Shown: positions 3,989 through 33,173 of the stretch, in pieces
How positions within the stretch are numbered: the stretch's first letter is position 1
How the letters are laid out: the number at the start of each line of letters is the position of its first letter
Assembly: GCA_902798685.1 (NCBI GenBank)
Contig: CADBXO010000017.1
Coordinates: 1-37,188, forward strand
Direction: 5' to 3'
DNA from: an uncultured Bacteroidales bacterium
GTDB lineage: Bacteria; Bacteroidota; Bacteroidia; Bacteroidales; Bacteroidaceae
DNA: 37,188 nucleotides
Position numbers and translations under genes: made by a program
Notes under the pieces: model-generated
What the model was told of the DNA's origin: nothing
Seen by the model: the letters and a program-made list of their open reading frames with translations, nothing else
Database searches by the model: none

Positions 3989-4671
3989 TGCAGGTACTTT
4001 ACGAGGATAATCACATTATTATCGTCTCTAAACTGTCGGGCGAGATAGTACAGGGCGACAAGACCGGCGATGTTCCGTTGTCGGACATTGTGGCTGCGTA
4101 CCTTAAGGAGAAATACTCCAAACCCGGCAATGTGTTTGTTGGTGTGCCGCACCGTCTGGACCGCCCTGTTAGCGGACTGGTGGTGCTGGCCAAAACCAGC
4201 AAGGCGCTGTCACGTCTGAACGAGATGTTCCGCGTAGGCAGTGTCGACAAGCGTTATCTGGCTATCGTCAAGAACAGGCCTAAACAGCCTGAAGGCAGGC
4301 TTGAGAACTGGCTGGTAAGGAACGAGAAACAGAACCGCTCATATGCATATGACAAGGAGGTGCCCGGCAGCAAGCAGGCAATCCTCAATTATAAAATGGT
4401 GGCAAGTTCAGTCAATTATCATCTTCTGGAGATTGAGTTGCTGACAGGACGCCATCATCAGATTCGCTGTCAGCTGGCCAAGATGGGTTGTCCCATCAAG
4501 GGTGACCTCAAGTACGGAGCCGAGCGTTCCAACCCTGACGGCAGCATATCACTACACGCATTCCATGTGACCTTTGAGCATCCCGTGTCACATGAGATGA
4601 TAGACGTCAAGGCACCCCTGCCTGAGGATTCGCTCTGGCAGAGTTTCAAGGATCAGGTACAGGACCTCTGA
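3988..4671 (+). CDS. RluA-family pseudouridine synthase
   Basis: A 227-residue protein that isomerises uridine to pseudouridine in rRNA or tRNA. The catalytic motif HRLDRPVSGL is at residues 55-64, with Asp58 as the catalytic aspartate. The later motif LLTGRHHQIRCQLA and the strand GDLKYGA are standard for the RluA/RluC/RluD group. There is no N-terminal S4 domain, so it resembles the short RluA/TruC-like members. The specific RNA target cannot be read from sequence. The start overlaps the fabG stop by one base. It meets the cyclophilin gene on the other strand with no spacer: its TGA ends at 4671 and the other stop begins at 4672. Confidence 0.9.
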   Translation: MQVLYEDNHIIIVSKLSGEIVQGDKTGDVPLSDIVAAYLKEKYSKPGNVFVGVPHRLDRPVSGLVVLAKTSKALSRLNEMFRVGSVDKRYLAIVKNRPKQPEGRLENWLVRNEKQNRSYAYDKEVPGSKQAILNYKMVASSVNYHLLEIELLTGRHHQIRCQLAKMGCPIKGDLKYGAERSNPDGSISLHAFHVTFEHPVSHEMIDVKAPLPEDSLWQSFKDQVQDL

Positions 4672-5553
4672 TTACTGTTGGGGGTTATCTTCAAGAACGT
4701 ATGCCCTGATGATCTTTACATCAGGATTGGGGCGTCCGTTCTTTCCGGTGGCGGGAAGCTTCTCTATTGCCTCGATCACATCCATTCCTTCTGATATCTC
4801 ACCGAACACGGTATAAAGACCGTCAAGGGTATGGGCACCGCCCACGGTGGTGTACTGCTTGATCTGTTCCTGTGAGTATGCGAACTGGGGACGGGTCTTC
4901 ATGATGGCATCAGCCTGGTCATTCAGCTGCTCGTTGAGTTTGCTTATCTTTTTCTTCTCACCGTATTTCTGCCATGTGAGGATATCCTTGGCATGCGGCT
5001 GGGTGATGGAGTCCTTCACAGCCTGGCGGTAACGCTTGTTGATGACCTTCTCCTGTGCGGGCAGGTTGGAGCTGTTCACCTTCTTGCCGGTTATGATATA
5101 GAACTGCTGGCTGGTGGAGTAGTTGAACTGCTTGGTGCTGGCCTGTCCTACGGCTCCGCGCTTGTGGTAGAACTTCCAGGGATTTACCTCTGAATCGATC
5201 CTGTACTCGTCCTCATCGGCATCAATTCCTATCTCCTGTCCGGGTTTGGCGTTCTTGGAATGGACGTCACCGCACTGGATCTTGTATCCTTTCTGAATTC
5301 CGAAGAAGAGCTGGTCATCATAGAAACCCTTGCGGGCCAGACGTACCATATTGTGGCGGTGAAGCGGTGTCTCGCGGTAGAGCTTTATGGTGAAGTTGCC
5401 CTTTGTAGTCTCAAAACGCACGTACTGATCGGCGTCGAGTATAATGGTATCGGCGTCAACCTCCTCGGCGGGAGCGGCAGCGCCGCTGTTCTTACAGTTT
5501 GTGGCAAAAAGCAATGCCATTACGAGCGGAATTCCGATAAGATATTTTTTCAT
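4672..5553 (-). CDS. cyclophilin-type peptidyl-prolyl cis-trans isomerase, lipoprotein
   Basis: A 293-residue envelope foldase. The N-terminus (MKKYLIGIPLVMALLFATNC) is a lipoprotein signal ending in Cys20. A short linker leads into the cyclophilin domain (from about residue 45: VRFETTKGNFTIKLYRETPLHRHNMVRLARKGFYDD). The family blocks are diverged: the usual GGD-type motif reads KIQCGDV. A charged helical insertion of about 70 residues (near 165-235, rich in Lys/Gln) splits the fold before the conserved end GLYTVFGEISEGMDVIEAIEKL. Similar long cyclophilins are common in Bacteroides. Isomerase activity is inferred from the fold. It has its own weak upstream promoter candidate and no terminator, because it abuts the convergent rluA-type gene. 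Confidence 0.85.
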   Translation of the reverse strand: MKKYLIGIPLVMALLFATNCKNSGAAAPAEEVDADTIILDADQYVRFETTKGNFTIKLYRETPLHRHNMVRLARKGFYDDQLFFGIQKGYKIQCGDVHSKNAKPGQEIGIDADEDEYRIDSEVNPWKFYHKRGAVGQASTKQFNYSTSQQFYIITGKKVNSSNLPAQEKVINKRYRQAVKDSITQPHAKDILTWQKYGEKKKISKLNEQLNDQADAIMKTRPQFAYSQEQIKQYTTVGGAHTLDGLYTVFGEISEGMDVIEAIEKLPATGKNGRPNPDVKIIRAYVLEDNPQQ

Positions 5554-28778: not shown

Positions 28779-29781
28779 GATAATATTTGCTCTCACAGCG
28801 TTGGCTTTAGCCTCCTGTGACGAATGGGATGTCCAGATGGACACTCAGGTCATGCGCGACGGATCGTGTGTGCGTACGGTCACTACAGATGACGATGGTT
28901 GCCTTACTGAGGATGAGGGATGGGATGTGCTGGAAACCAAGGATTCTGTAGATGTACTTAGAAACAAGGTACAGGGTGTAACTGTCAGCAGAAAGTTTGA
29001 AAGGGTAGAGGATATGAACGGTTCTCCGGCTCTGCAGATATTTGGAAGACCCCTAAAGTCAGAGGCAACTCTTGACAGGAAATTCAAATGGTTCTATACC
29101 GACTATACTTTTACGGAGACATTCCGTGGATGGGAAGACTCATTCAATATTCCAATTACGGATTATCTGAGTCAGGACGAGGCCTCTTTCTGGTTTACCG
29201 GTTATCCTGAACTTCCAAAGGGAATTACAGGCAAGGAACTGGACTACCTGTCCGATATCTCATGTAATGCGGAACACTGGGCCTTTGACGTAATGTGGGA
29301 TATCTACTTCAGGTCAATTGCCGAATATTACGATCAGATTGGGAACCCGCCGGTGGATCGTGAAACATTCCTTTCAATGCGTGATACGGTCATGAAGTCT
29401 GCATATGAAAAAGAAATAAATGTCATGGACTTTGTTGGCGATAACGAGGCTCTTGAATACCTGGACAGATTCTTTAATACAAATGTCTTTACTGAAACCG
29501 ATATTCCGGATGCGGAGACTTATGGTGGAACATTATGGTACCAGAGTGTAGGACTAGGCTGCCTGAAGGTCTCATATACCTTAAAGATGCCCGGTAAGGT
29601 CATTGATGCCGGCCGTGGCCAGGTTGAGGATGGCGTGATACAGTATCGTTTTGGTGGAGATTACCTCATAACGGGTGACTATACCTTTACGGCATCATCC
29701 AGATGCGCGAACGTGTGGGCGTTCCTGCTCTCAGGTCTGATAGTGATAATTGCTGTAGGAAGTTTCTTTATCAAGCGCTAA
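28759..29781 (+). CDS. lipoprotein with extra C-terminal membrane helix, function unknown
   Basis: A 340-residue protein. The N-terminus MRTPIFKIIFALTALALASC is a lipoprotein signal with Cys20, followed by Asp-Glu. The mature domain (about 21-315) is a mixed alpha/beta region without a family I recognise. A second hydrophobic segment (about 317-337, VWAFLLSGLIVIIAVGSFF) ends in Lys-Arg. That C-terminal helix should hold the protein in the inner membrane despite its lipid anchor. The gene overlaps the putative anti-sigma gene by 20 bp, so it is probably a sensor or effector of that sigma system. Its stop overlaps the convergent nikR-like gene by 4 bp. Confidence 0.7.
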   Translation: MRTPIFKIIFALTALALASCDEWDVQMDTQVMRDGSCVRTVTTDDDGCLTEDEGWDVLETKDSVDVLRNKVQGVTVSRKFERVEDMNGSPALQIFGRPLKSEATLDRKFKWFYTDYTFTETFRGWEDSFNIPITDYLSQDEASFWFTGYPELPKGITGKELDYLSDISCNAEHWAFDVMWDIYFRSIAEYYDQIGNPPVDRETFLSMRDTVMKSAYEKEINVMDFVGDNEALEYLDRFFNTNVFTETDIPDAETYGGTLWYQSVGLGCLKVSYTLKMPGKVIDAGRGQVEDGVIQYRFGGDYLITGDYTFTASSRCANVWAFLLSGLIVIIAVGSFFIKR

Positions 29782-30179
29782 TCGGCGCGGCTCATAAGCA
29801 GTTTGCCGTGACGGATGCCCTTGATGGATGTCATCTCATCGGCCAGGGCGGTAAGCAGGCGGGCCTCACCCATGACGGTGCAAACGTGCAGACAGGTGCC
29901 CTCATTGATGTAGTGCTGCTGAGATGAAAGTACAAGATTCTGGTGGCGGATCTGTATATCCGATATGCGTGCGGATATATCGGTCCGCTGCTGGTCATAT
30001 ATAATGAATATGGTGCCGGCAACGATGTGGTTGCACTGCCATTTCTTTTCGGCCACGTTTTTCTCGATCAGAAAACGTATTGCCTGCGAACGGTTGGCGA
30101 AACCGTCCTCCTTTACAAGAGAGTCAAGCTGCTCCAGCAACTCGTCCTCAAGTGATACTCCGAACCTCTTCAAAGCCAT
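29778..30179 (-). CDS. NikR-like ribbon-helix-helix metalloregulator with altered metal site
   Basis: A 133-residue protein with the NikR layout. The ribbon-helix-helix DNA-binding domain (residues 1-45, KRFGVSLEDELLEQLDSLVKEDGFANRSQAIRFLIEK) is followed by an ACT-like metal-binding domain. Length and the final KGIRHGKL match NikR. When aligned with E. coli NikR by eye, ligands His76, His87 and His89 become Ile77, Gln88 and Tyr90; only Cys95 (here Cys96) remains. His79, His89, Cys49 and Cys100 could offer another site. It may sense another metal, bind nickel differently, or not sense metal at all. It is divergent from nrdDG. Confidence 0.82.
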   Translation of the reverse strand: MALKRFGVSLEDELLEQLDSLVKEDGFANRSQAIRFLIEKNVAEKKWQCNHIVAGTIFIIYDQQRTDISARISDIQIRHQNLVLSSQQHYINEGTCLHVCTVMGEARLLTALADEMTSIKGIRHGKLLMSRAD

Positions 30180-30183
30180 ACCG

Positions 30184-30191
30184 CAAACTTA
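30184..30191 (-). promoter_or_regulatory. -7 box (TAAGTTTG, minus strand) of the nikR-like gene
   Basis: An exact TAnnTTTG match that ends only 4 bases before the ATG at 30179. With the usual spacing to the transcript start, the mRNA would be leaderless or nearly so. Confidence 0.5.
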
Positions 30192-30236
30192 AGAAAAAAA
30201 CTCCAGAAAGTACCCCTGAAATATGTCCTGTTTAGG

Positions 30237-30281
30237 CTGTTGAAAACTTCTCTTTTAGAAAGCCTCGGAAGTTATTAACAG
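30237..30281. promoter_or_regulatory. inverted repeat between the nikR-like gene and nrdD (candidate operator)
   Basis: CTGTTGAAAACTTC (30237-30250) and GAAGTTATTAACAG (30268-30281) are inverted copies matching at 12 of 14 positions, 17 bases apart. The dyad lies between the two divergent promoters and has no T-tract, so it is not a terminator. A regulator such as the NikR-like protein or a redox regulator could bind here. This is inference. Confidence 0.4.
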
Positions 30282-30307
30282 GCCGTACCAACATATTGTT
30301 TTTATAA

Positions 30308-30315
30308 TATCTTTG
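30308..30315 (+). promoter_or_regulatory. nrdD -7 box (TATCTTTG)
   Basis: An exact TAnnTTTG match directly upstream of the riboswitch. It predicts a leader of about 310 bases before nrdD. Confidence 0.65.
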
Positions 30316-30324
30316 CCTACGTCA

Positions 30325-30545
30325 TTGGTTTCCGAATGGGAACAACCATAAGGAATAATTTGGAATCCGGTGAAAATCCGGGACAGTACCTGCTGCTGTA
30401 AGTTCTTGATAATGTGTCCGATGCACTCTCTGCCACTGGCCGTTGAGGGACCGGGAAGGCGCATCGGAAGGAACGAGTCAGAAGACCTGCCAATGGCAAT
30501 TGGGGCCCTTGGTTCTTGCAGGACTACAAGGCCGGGGATTTTGAG
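30325..30545 (+). ncRNA. cobalamin (B12) riboswitch in the nrdDG leader
   Basis: The conserved blocks of the adenosylcobalamin riboswitch occur in order. GGAATCCGGTGAAAATCC leads into ACAGTACCTGCTGCTGTAA (30362-30401). Then come GCCACTGG (30432-30439), GGGAAGGC (30453-30460) and the B12 box GAGTCAGAAGACCTGCC (30475-30491). Supporting stems are TCCGATGC/GCATCGGA (30417-30424 with 30461-30468) and a 3' hairpin GGCCCTTG/CAAGGCC near 30505-30534. No intrinsic terminator lies between it and nrdD, so control is probably at translation start. In known cases such riboswitches turn genes off when B12 is present. The rest of the 450-base gap holds only the dyad at 30237-30281 and two promoters. Confidence 0.92.
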
Positions 30546-30630
30546 GGAGTTATCCTGATTATACGGTGCAACTTTGTGGAGGGACTATGTCACTCTGCGA
30601 TGCTGAATTGATGAATACTTTTAGTTATTT

Positions 30631-32712
30631 ATGGAGACATATATTGTAAAAAGAGATGGCAAACACGAGGTGTTTACCATTGACAAGATTAAGGCCGCTA
30701 TCTCCAAGTCTTTCCTGGCTTCAGGCGCATTCGCTACTGAAGAGGTTATGACCGGAATCCTGAGCCATCTGAATATCCAAAGCGGTATCAGCGTGGAGGA
30801 GATCCAGAACCAGGTCGAGGTTGCTTTGATGGCCGAGGGCTACTATCAGGTTGCCAAAACGTACATGCTGTACCGCAACCGCCACGCTGAGGACCGTGAG
30901 ACTAAATCAAAACTCGAGTTCCTCATGGGCTATTGTCAAGCTGCGAACGCTGCCGAGGGAAGCAAGTTCGATGCAAACGCCAATGTAGAAAACAAGAACA
31001 TCGCAACTCTTATCGGTGAGTTGCCTAAAAAGGGCTTTATCCGTCTGAACCGCCGTCTGCTGTGCGACCGTATCCGTACCATGTTCGGTAAGGAGGTGGC
31101 CGATAAGTACATCAGCCTGCTGCACCAGCACTTCATCTACAAGAACGATGAGACTAACCTGGCCAACTACTGCGCAAGTATCACCATGTATCCGTGGCTG
31201 CTTGGCGGTACCAAGTCAATAGGCGGCAACGCTACACAGCCTACCAACCTCAAGGCTTTCTGCGGCGGTTTCATCAACATGGTATTCATGGTCTCTTCAA
31301 TGCTTTCAGGTGCATGCGCTACTCCTGAGTTCCTCATGTACATGAACTACTTCATTGAGAAGGAGTACGGTGAGGATTACTACAAGCGTGCCGATGAGAT
31401 TGTTGACCTGAGCATAAAGAAACGTTCAATCGATAAGGTTATCACTGACTACTTCCAGCAGGTAGTATACAGTATCAACCAGCCTACCGGTGCACGTAAC
31501 TTCCAGTCAGTGTTCTGGAACATCAGCTACTATGACCGCTACTACTTTGAGTCACTGTTCGGCGAGTTCCGCTTCCCGGACGGCGAGAAGCCCCATTGGG
31601 AGTCTCTCTCATGGCTGCAGAAGCGTTTCATGAAGTGGTTCAACGAGGAGCGTCTGCGCTGCGTGCTCACATTCCCGGTTGAGACCATGGCTCTTCTTAC
31701 CGAGAACGGTGACGTTAAGGATAAGGAGTACGGTGACTTCACAGCCGAGATGTATGCCGAGGGTCACTCATTCTTCACCTACATCAGCGACAACGCTGAC
31801 TCACTGTCAAGCTGCTGCCGTCTTAGAAACGCCATTACCGATAACGGATTCTCATATACACTTGGTGCCGGCGGCGTAAGTACCGGTTCAAAGAGCGTGC
31901 TCACCATCAACCTGAACCGTTGCGTTCAGTATGCACAGCGCATGGGTATTCCTTATCAGAACTATATCGAGGAGGTTGTTGACCTGATGCACAAGGTTCA
32001 GCTGGCTTACAACGAGAACCTCAAGGAGCTGCAGAGCAAGGGTATGCTTCCGCTGTTCGATTCAGGTTACATCAACATCGGCCGTCAGTATCTGACCATC
32101 GGTGTAAACGGTCTGGTTGAGAGTGCCGAGTTCCTGGGTATCGAGATCAGTGACAACCCGCGTTATACCGAGTATGTTCAGACAGTACTGGGTATCATCG
32201 AGAAACTGAACAAGCACTACCACTCAAAGGGTGTTATGTTCAACTGTGAGATGATTCCGGCTGAGAACGTTGGTGTAAAGAACGCCAAGTGGGATAAGGA
32301 GGACGGCTACGTTGTACCGCGTGACTGCTACAACAGCTACTTCTACAAGGTTGAGGATAGCACACTGAACGTAATTGACCGTTTCCGTCTGCACGGTGCC
32401 AAGTACATCGAGCATCTGACCGGTGGTTCAGCACTGCACTGCAACCTTGAGGAGCACCTGTCAAAGGCTCAGTACCGTCAGCTTCTCAGAGTGGCTGCTC
32501 AGGAGGGTTGCAACTACTTCACGTTCAACATTCCGAACACCATCTGCAATGAGTGCGGTAACATTGACAAGCGCTACCTGAAGGAGTGCCCGCACTGCCA
32601 CTCAACAAATGTTGACTACCTGACACGTATCATCGGATACATGAAGCGTGTAAGCAACTTCTCAGCTGCACGTCAGGTAGAGGCTGCCAAGCGTTATTAC
32701 GCTACTATGTAA
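30631..32712 (+). CDS. nrdD: anaerobic (class III) ribonucleoside-triphosphate reductase
   Basis: A 693-residue oxygen-sensitive enzyme that reduces ribonucleotides to deoxyribonucleotides using a glycyl radical. An N-terminal ATP-cone (about residues 3-92, VKRDGKHEVFTIDKIKAAI) gives allosteric control. The C-terminal zinc site has Cys639, Cys642, Cys653 and Cys656 (CNECG, CPHC). The glycyl radical is Gly669 in RIIGYMKRVSNF, 25 residues from the end. NrdG installs the radical and follows directly (TAATG overlap). The ATG at 30631 matches the start of the ATP-cone. The gene is preceded by a cobalamin riboswitch, which suggests the cell also has a B12-dependent class II reductase elsewhere. Confidence 0.96.
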   Translation: METYIVKRDGKHEVFTIDKIKAAISKSFLASGAFATEEVMTGILSHLNIQSGISVEEIQNQVEVALMAEGYYQVAKTYMLYRNRHAEDRETKSKLEFLMGYCQAANAAEGSKFDANANVENKNIATLIGELPKKGFIRLNRRLLCDRIRTMFGKEVADKYISLLHQHFIYKNDETNLANYCASITMYPWLLGGTKSIGGNATQPTNLKAFCGGFINMVFMVSSMLSGACATPEFLMYMNYFIEKEYGEDYYKRADEIVDLSIKKRSIDKVITDYFQQVVYSINQPTGARNFQSVFWNISYYDRYYFESLFGEFRFPDGEKPHWESLSWLQKRFMKWFNEERLRCVLTFPVETMALLTENGDVKDKEYGDFTAEMYAEGHSFFTYISDNADSLSSCCRLRNAITDNGFSYTLGAGGVSTGSKSVLTINLNRCVQYAQRMGIPYQNYIEEVVDLMHKVQLAYNENLKELQSKGMLPLFDSGYINIGRQYLTIGVNGLVESAEFLGIEISDNPRYTEYVQTVLGIIEKLNKHYHSKGVMFNCEMIPAENVGVKNAKWDKEDGYVVPRDCYNSYFYKVEDSTLNVIDRFRLHGAKYIEHLTGGSALHCNLEEHLSKAQYRQLLRVAAQEGCNYFTFNIPNTICNECGNIDKRYLKECPHCHSTNVDYLTRIIGYMKRVSNFSAARQVEAAKRYYATM

Positions 32713-33173
32713 TGAAAATTGCGTCATACGACATAGTTTTCCAGGATGTACCGGGAGAGGTTACGCTATCGCTTAACCTCTCCCAGTGTCCTAACCGCTG
32801 TCCAGGTTGTCACAGCCCGCTGTTGCAGGATGATATAGGTTTGTTATTGGATGACGACATGCTGGACGGATTGCTGGAACGCTATGGACGCGACGTGACG
32901 TGTGTATGTTTCATGGGAGGCGACCGTGAGCCAGGGGAGGTTATGCGGCTTGCCGACCGTGTACATGCCGCGGGTATAAAGACAGCCTGGTATTCAGGCC
33001 GTCAGGAACTGCCGGAGTGTTTCAGAAAGGAATCTCTGGATTATGTCAAGGTGGGACCCTACATAGAGAGCAGGGGACCGTTGCCAAACCCCAACACCAA
33101 TCAGCGAATGTACAGGATTGAGAACGGGGAGATGACAGACATTACGGCAAGTTTCAGAAAAAAAAAGGGGTAG
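32712..33173 (+). CDS. nrdG: anaerobic ribonucleotide reductase-activating protein (radical SAM)
   Basis: A 153-residue radical SAM enzyme that uses a 4Fe-4S cluster and S-adenosylmethionine to form the glycyl radical on NrdD. The cluster motif is Cys26-x3-Cys30-x2-Cys33 (CPNRCPGC), and the SAM-binding GGD-type segment is FMGGDREPG. The length is typical of NrdG. The start overlaps the nrdD stop by one base. The stop codon lies in the stem of the following terminator. Confidence 0.95.
   Translation: MKIASYDIVFQDVPGEVTLSLNLSQCPNRCPGCHSPLLQDDIGLLLDDDMLDGLLERYGRDVTCVCFMGGDREPGEVMRLADRVHAAGIKTAWYSGRQELPECFRKESLDYVKVGPYIESRGPLPNPNTNQRMYRIENGEMTDITASFRKKKG

Follow-up and report, generated by a model that had tools for sequence, protein, structure and literature searches.

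A cobalamin riboswitch before nrdDG in an uncultured Bacteroidales bacterium and its co-occurrence with the B12-dependent reductase gene nrdJ

Placing the class III ribonucleotide reductase genes nrdDG under a cobalamin (B12) riboswitch in a cell that also holds the class II gene nrdJ is a strategy already known in other bacteria. B12-elements before nrdDG beside nrdJ were reported from Desulfovibrio vulgaris and Desulfuromonas in 2004, with the proposal that B12 leads to inhibition of NrdDG and use of NrdJ (PMC545781). Propionibacterium acnes carries cobalamin riboswitches in its nrdAB and nrdDG leaders and none before nrdRJ (PMC3848588, 2013), and in Candidatus Chlorobium antarcticum one lies before nrdD, translational control having been described in Chlorobi (PMC8620254, 2021). 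Here we analyze a 37,188-nucleotide (nt) stretch of DNA from an uncultured Bacteroidales bacterium (GCA_902798685.1, contig CADBXO010000017.1; hereafter the window), which is contig C17 of a 2.26-Mb draft genome (G000) that is 84% complete, and in which a cobalamin riboswitch occupies the leader of nrdDG. The first-pass annotation of this DNA had named Streptomyces nrdAB as precedent. In Streptomyces, a cobalamin riboswitch reportedly controls the B12-independent reductase nrdABS beside a class II enzyme; the target is class Ia, unlike that in the window, and the nrdDG element published in 2004 is the closer parallel.

The window shares with the Desulfovibrio and Desulfuromonas loci a riboswitch on nrdDG together with nrdJ, and the same function is proposed here; it belongs to another phylum, and no comparison of leaders that have lost the riboswitch was found in the accessible part of that work (PMC545781). 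As in P. acnes, the riboswitch lies in the 5′ untranslated region of nrdDG and none precedes the class II gene, whereas P. acnes also has the class I genes nrdAB and NrdR boxes (PMC3848588) and the window's draft yielded no class I small subunit. The Ca. Chlorobium antarcticum locus likewise has its riboswitch upstream of nrdD but stems from a different phylum, and a mention of nrdJ was not found in the accessible part of the report (PMC8620254).

RF00174 matched the nrdD leader over model positions 1–189 of 189 at 87.3 bits against a gathering score of 31.5 (E = 2.1e-20; cmscan on the whole window), a score that rules out a chance match. Across the whole window, the only other Rfam match at gathering score was a tRNA. 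The five blocks from which the first-pass annotation had read a cobalamin aptamer are all there in the order it gave (GGTGAAAATCC from 30369, CTGCTGTAA from 30393, GCCACTGG from 30432, GGGAAGGC from 30453 and GAGTCAGAAGACCTGCC from 30475), and the covariance match that it had called for begins 16 nt upstream of its proposed start. All 17 riboswitch-bearing leaders of the window's genus are full-length RF00174 matches above the cut-off; in their alignment, 10 of 48 predicted aptamer pairs showed two-sided changes, or 12 of 57 when the following hairpin was included. By its curated covariance score, conserved core and compensatory pairing among relatives, the nrdD leader carries a cobalamin riboswitch.

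The likely promoter element at the start of the leader (Table 1) fits TAnnTTTG, which we take to be the −7 pattern of Bacteroidota, and the transcript would therefore begin inside the 5′ end of the riboswitch. By eye, the CTTTG-containing stretch at this site is kept in leaders that lack the aptamer. A −33 element was not recognized before the nrdD leader, where a sigma-70 scan also gave nothing. Two possible leader peptides were discarded. The ATG of an upstream open reading frame overlapping the nrdD start (30588–30650) has no counterpart in other long leaders, GACAAGG standing in G002, G006, G011 and G012 at the place of the window's GACTATG. The long leaders do share a shorter frame from the ATGAATACT stretch; no peptide is claimed from it because the frame is interrupted in G013 and the stretch shows conservation at the DNA level in any case.

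The start of nrdG and the stop of nrdD overlap by one base. NrdD scored 963.8 bits against the equivalog model TIGR02827 (cut-off 568.3) and matched PF13597 and, N-terminally, the ATP cone PF03477; it stayed under the threshold of the general model TIGR02487 (123.8 versus 326.35 bits). NrdG passed TIGR02826 barely (152.0 bits, cut-off 151.7), with no Pfam match at E 0.001. The equivalog match, the ATP cone and the adjacent activase gene identify a class III NrdD/NrdG pair. Directly before the nrdD leader lies a divergent gene for a NikR-like nickel regulator (RHH_1 and NikR_C).

Table 1 Coordinates of the features discussed; entries without a genome or locus label are window positions.
Feature	Coordinates	Strand	Basis
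Cobalamin riboswitch aptamer (RF00174)	30309..30508	+	87.3 bits over the whole model
Likely promoter −7 element TATCTTTG	30308..30315	+	TAnnTTTG-type pattern
Loop L5 (UGAAAAU), which may kiss L13	30371..30377	+	kissing pairs in 92.9% of cells, no two-sided change
Candidate expression-platform hairpin P13 (loop L13, UUGCA, 30516–30520)	30504..30533	+	covariation in 17 sequences
nrdD, class III anaerobic ribonucleotide reductase, 693 aa, ATP cone and NRDD	30631..32712	+	TIGR02827, PF13597, PF03477
nrdG, probable radical S-adenosylmethionine activase of NrdD, 153 aa, CPNRCPGC motif	32712..33173	+	TIGR02826
NikR-like regulator gene	29778–30179	−	RHH_1, NikR_C
Box copies in the window's genome	30242–30249 (one box); G000 C13:32827–32900 (pair before nrdJ)
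Third cobalamin riboswitch (C14)	L173:7413–7624	−	85.9 bits
Back-to-back riboswitches, first locus	L061:4340–4541; 4636–4854	−; +
Back-to-back riboswitches, second locus	L068:4346–4547; 4642–4860	−; +
NrdJ C-terminal piece	L178:6257–6748	−
NrdJ C-terminal piece	G037 C17:90860–91324
NrdJ C-terminal piece	G046 C3:249632–250084
NrdJ C-terminal piece	G050 C34:20947–21390
Incomplete NrdJ	G059 C27:36023–38275

The class II gene that the first-pass annotation had predicted for this bacterium is present: contig C13 encodes one full-length NrdJ (TIGR02504, 585 bits, over the cut-off) in the order dnaA-nrdJ-folB, the neighbor names being our assignments. The genome thus holds a B12-dependent isozyme beside the riboswitch-bearing B12-independent one. 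A search for the class I small subunit (PF00268) was positive in 7 of 14 control genomes and found none in this draft, which is 84% complete. RF00174 matched three times in the genome, in the nrdD leader and on contigs C29 and C14, with none on the nrdJ contig. Downstream of the C29 match come a DUF4465 gene and one for a TonB receptor, the latter probably btuB. Some 275 nt separate the C14 riboswitch from a downstream PEGA-domain gene, which seems to own a separate TAACTTTG element; near the aptamer only a 10-codon frame follows, and this riboswitch may be orphaned or control something unrecognized.

We consider it highly probable that the riboswitch represses nrdDG when B12 is high, with NrdJ then in use, and that nrdDG is on when B12 is scarce. 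High intracellular B12, probably as adenosylcobalamin, would act through the leader riboswitch to repress nrdDG, and DNA precursors would then come from the B12-dependent NrdJ. With B12 scarce, the aptamer would be empty, nrdDG would be expressed and the glycyl-radical class III enzyme would take over. The stretch after the aptamer would serve as the actuator, either by blocking ribosome access or by Rho-dependent termination. Ligand binding, the off-with-B12 direction and the mode of action are what we infer; B12 represses riboswitch-linked genes in Bacteroides thetaiotaomicron (PMC6143338).

Comparison of genomes supports this function. The first sample comprised the window's own genome and 100 relatives, of which RF00174 was found in 99, NrdD (TIGR02487) in 57, TIGR02504 in 88 (86 over the cut-off) and PF00268 in 3 (of 101 in all). 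Of the 56 other nrdD-bearing genomes, 55 gave DNA before nrdD that was scanned with Rfam, as 57 stretches; in four of the 55, the start or end of a contig shortened the stretch. Omitted were G056, in which a contig end cuts nrdD, and a 108-aa NrdD fragment on C7 of G038. A riboswitch preceded nrdD in 30 of the 55. Its status was taken from the window match and these leader scans only, the genome-wide RF00174 scan having used stricter filters. Both traits could be scored in 51 of the 57 nrdD-bearing genomes, after removal of G010, G055, G056 and G071 (nrdD cut, or a contig ending in or ahead of the leader), G090 (no more than 829 nt) and G059 (NrdJ match below the cut-off, inner stretch missing). 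NrdJ was encoded in 30 of 31 genomes with the riboswitch and in 10 of 20 without it (Fisher p = 1.2e-4, tip-level).

The ten genomes lacking both traits are G019, G020, G022, G026, G037, G046, G050, G052, G068 and G078. A looser search with the NrdJ of the window's genome found no full-length NrdJ in these ten or in G094; it returned only pieces, weak ones in G052 and others in G019, G037, G046 and G050. Four genomes that lack full-length NrdJ still keep its C-terminal part (~residues 671–831, 70–81% identity) in open frames of 174–445 aa within ~1.2 kb of dnaA, accompanied in G037 by an N-terminal piece (residues 5–66). Given this survival in open frames, the C-terminal domain may have a function of its own. 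The NrdJ of G059 is a single 764-aa open frame matching residues 6–491 and 584–857 only, as if an inner part of the catalytic region were missing.

A second sample consisted of 80 named loci encoding NrdD relatives, the best 80 among those listed by likeness to the window's NrdD, all scanned with a covariance model built from 25 riboswitches. A match preceded nrdD at 32 loci, including Bacteroides timonensis, B. oleiciplenus, several Alistipes and one Parabacteroides. L005–L008 have the same DNA as stretches of G012, G018, G024 and G034 and were left out; no other locus has a 100-mer in common with the first sample. In L067 the riboswitch lies after nrdD and was scored absent, the 5′-truncated aptamer of L053 was scored present, and three matches with E of 0.08–0.27 were excluded; only 501, 451 and 264 nt precede nrdD in L019, L035 and L053. 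Among the resulting 76 species, nrdJ was found in 27 of 28 with the riboswitch versus 11 of 48 without (Fisher p = 1.9e-10, tip-level; genome completeness not given). The cultured relatives Alistipes muris (L078), B. oleiciplenus (L068) and Parabacteroides sp. (L080) carry both the riboswitch and nrdJ. The comparison of nrdD leaders proposed in the first-pass annotation yields, in both samples, a riboswitch that tracks nrdJ. In B. timonensis and B. oleiciplenus, two cobalamin riboswitches stand back to back before nrdD, one facing the opposite way.

The exceptions count against the proposed function. G094, although 96% complete, and the genome of L043 carry the riboswitch with nrdJ not found. 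NrdD is free of the riboswitch in 10 of 40 nrdJ-bearing genomes of the first sample (G016, G023, G041, G043, G044, G045, G051, G057, G081 and G085) and in 11 of 38 of the second, so that the riboswitch is not obligatory. An assembly gap may account for the missing nrdJ in G033, G055, G094 and L043's genome. In support of the function, an RF00174 match in G038 and G045, which have all three reductase classes, lies, by coordinates, ~0.75 kb before the NrdA match of nrdAB.

Because both traits are clustered on trees, the tip-level p values do not reflect independent events. On an NrdD protein tree of 81 rows, built by a quick method, the riboswitch changed 8 times and nrdJ 6 times; the genus tree was made from dnaA DNA. 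The co-occurrence could be a by-product of shared ancestry, clades simply having both traits or neither, a reading that we judge unlikely even though it fits the strong clustering and the largely Paludibacteraceae-labelled group formed by many of the rows that lack both. Independent contrasts were few (2 on supported branches of the genus tree, 6 in the NrdD tree), and the sign test on independent pairs was not significant, nrdJ being the same in about half of them, all of which tells against a functional link. On the other side, of the 22 genus genomes that carry this nrdD and a leader that could be read, 3 of the 5 without the aptamer lack nrdJ versus 0 of 17 with it, and random pairings on the NrdD tree had nrdJ going with the riboswitch in 1–3 pairs and against it in 0–1, with no difference in the remaining 3–5. 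On this tree the window's genus sits among Paludibacteraceae- or uncultured Bacteroidales-labelled sequences that mostly lack both traits (support of the nearest forks, 86–99). Many deep members of that genus carry nrdJ alone, and its crown may have gained nrdDG by transfer.

Within the genus (37 genomes, the window's own included), 17 have both genes with the riboswitch, two have both without it (G016 and G023), three have nrdD only, without it (G020, G022 and G026), and 12 have nrdJ only. The rest are one with neither gene found (G033), one in which NrdD is of another type and NrdJ is reduced to its C-terminal part (G019) and one whose leader is cut by a contig end (G010). By eye, the leaders of G016, G020, G022, G023 and G026 keep CTTTG and the next ~8–12 nt with some differences, after which the aptamer is missing. 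The G016 leader reaches the ATG almost immediately; G020 and G022 have a common leader retaining GAGTCAGAA, which resembles the 3′ block of the aptamer; G023 retains the P13 region with a changed loop; and G026 has yet another junction. Parsimony on the genus tree gave three changes of riboswitch state, and the G020/G022/G023 group, with its two differing junctions, hints at a fourth. In G020, G022 and G026, dnaA and folB are adjacent: the ends of their tblastn matches lie 11–25 nt apart, a distance that includes the stop codon, and the pair is found within contigs of 85, 365 and 155 kb; nrdJ is therefore absent from the site, and an assembly gap hiding it is ruled out. The order dnaA-nrdJ-folB is retained in G016 and G023, which look like an intermediate step. 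Each of the three nrdJ-less genomes has two RF00174 matches elsewhere (among the matches listed), so that B12 sensing itself was not lost.

A shared feature of the two reductases is a paired GGAAAACTTT box that precedes both nrdD and nrdJ in Bacteroidales, its copies 64–66 or 71–72 bp apart. The pattern GGRAAACTTT-N54–63-GRAAACTT matched 48 times in 34 of the 101 genomes versus once for a reversed control pattern. Thirty-six matches are found ahead of nrdJ or nrdD, at distances of up to 1.3 kb from the family match, two of them in opposite orientation. Repeat arrays of G038 and G070 account for eight of the other 12; a further one (G010 C134) looks, by eye, like nrdD leaders. The window's nrdD leader has a single box, without a match to the pair pattern. 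The paired box points to a layer of control that the two reductases share and is a candidate operator for a putative reductase regulator; it appears unlike the usual NrdR box. In the window's genome a link to dnaA is also possible, since the nrdJ copy sits between dnaA and nrdJ.

Within the genus, loss of nrdJ only in genomes without the switch is what would be expected if the switch shuts nrdD off, because without nrdJ the switch would be harmful. We regard it as an even bet that in this Bacteroidaceae genus the switch was excised repeatedly, the start of the leader staying in place, and nrdJ was then deleted only in switch-less lineages, freeing the cell from the B12-dependent reductase, with the shared box as common control. 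That the riboswitch is instead a relic, or responds to a different cobamide and does not repress nrdD physiologically, appears very improbable: two genomes (G094 and that of L043) carry it without detectable nrdJ, but the 17 genus leaders are full length and above the cut-off with two-sided changes in 10 aptamer pairs, and lost aptamers are missing as a block rather than by slow decay.

After the aptamer, the alignment of the 17 genus leaders points to a candidate hairpin, P13, with 86.6% of cells paired and two-sided changes in 4 of 11 pairs, whose loop L13 could kiss L5; the candidate L5–L13 pairs hold in 92.9% of cells, with zero two-sided changes. None of 500 shuffles reached the paired cells or the covariation score of the whole counted structure, and 25 of 500 reached the observed number of pairs with two-sided changes. 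Several results speak against this hairpin and kissing loop. The central position of L5 (UGNAA) and L13 is compatible in 11 of 17 leaders and mismatched in 6, the window included; RNAalifold favors another, partly exclusive hairpin in the P13 stretch; the number of pair types is not above that of shuffles (394 of 500 reach it); sliding by +1 also yields four pairs with two-sided changes, at only 55.3% of cells paired; and 30500–30660 folds no better than shuffled sequence (z = −0.37). A kissing loop formed through GGGGATTTTGAG (from 30534) in place of UUGCA was rejected, that stretch being variable among relatives.

The lack of a terminator, from which the first-pass annotation had deduced translational control, was borne out, no intrinsic terminator being found on the plus strand of 30180–30700 (the single site listed is on the minus strand, inside nrdD); the deduction itself leaves room for Rho-dependent control. 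Control by a block of translation has, in our estimate, only about equal odds of being right or wrong, because a B12 riboswitch of B. thetaiotaomicron lowers downstream mRNA ~70-fold by quantitative reverse-transcription PCR (PMC6143338). A chance just short of even goes to a real riboswitch whose action, beyond any block of translation, falls on the transcript, through Rho-dependent termination, an unrecognized terminator or decay. The ~70-fold drop fits such action, as do the distances in the window, where 122 nt separate aptamer and start codon and P13 ends 97 nt before the ATG. Opposed to it are the lack of an intrinsic terminator and five short genus leaders (G004, G005, G008, G009 and G024) in which P13 ends 17–20 nt before the ATG, a position that suits ribosome blocking; moreover, untranslated mRNA may decay too.

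A survey of RNA regulons in 11 Bacteroidaceae genomes named isozymes of B12-dependent enzymes as a target class (PMC3766115); 'nrd' does not occur in its main text, and a Bacteroidaceae case may be in its supplements. Nothing on nrdD control in Bacteroidales was found in the accessible parts of PMC6143338, PMC7733943, PMC9600662, PMC8123684 and PMC8941943. The window's genus offers a natural experiment, with species that have nrdJ only, both genes with the switch, both without it or nrdD only, in which the order of events is testable. If the proposed sequence of switch excision and nrdJ deletion is true, removal of the riboswitch sets the dependence of the cell on B12 for DNA synthesis. De novo B12 synthesis is found in 0.6% of Bacteroidota genomes (PMC8123684) and, as most Bacteroidota rely on supplied B12, the nrdD riboswitch would tie the choice of the enzyme that makes DNA precursors to the B12 output of neighbors.

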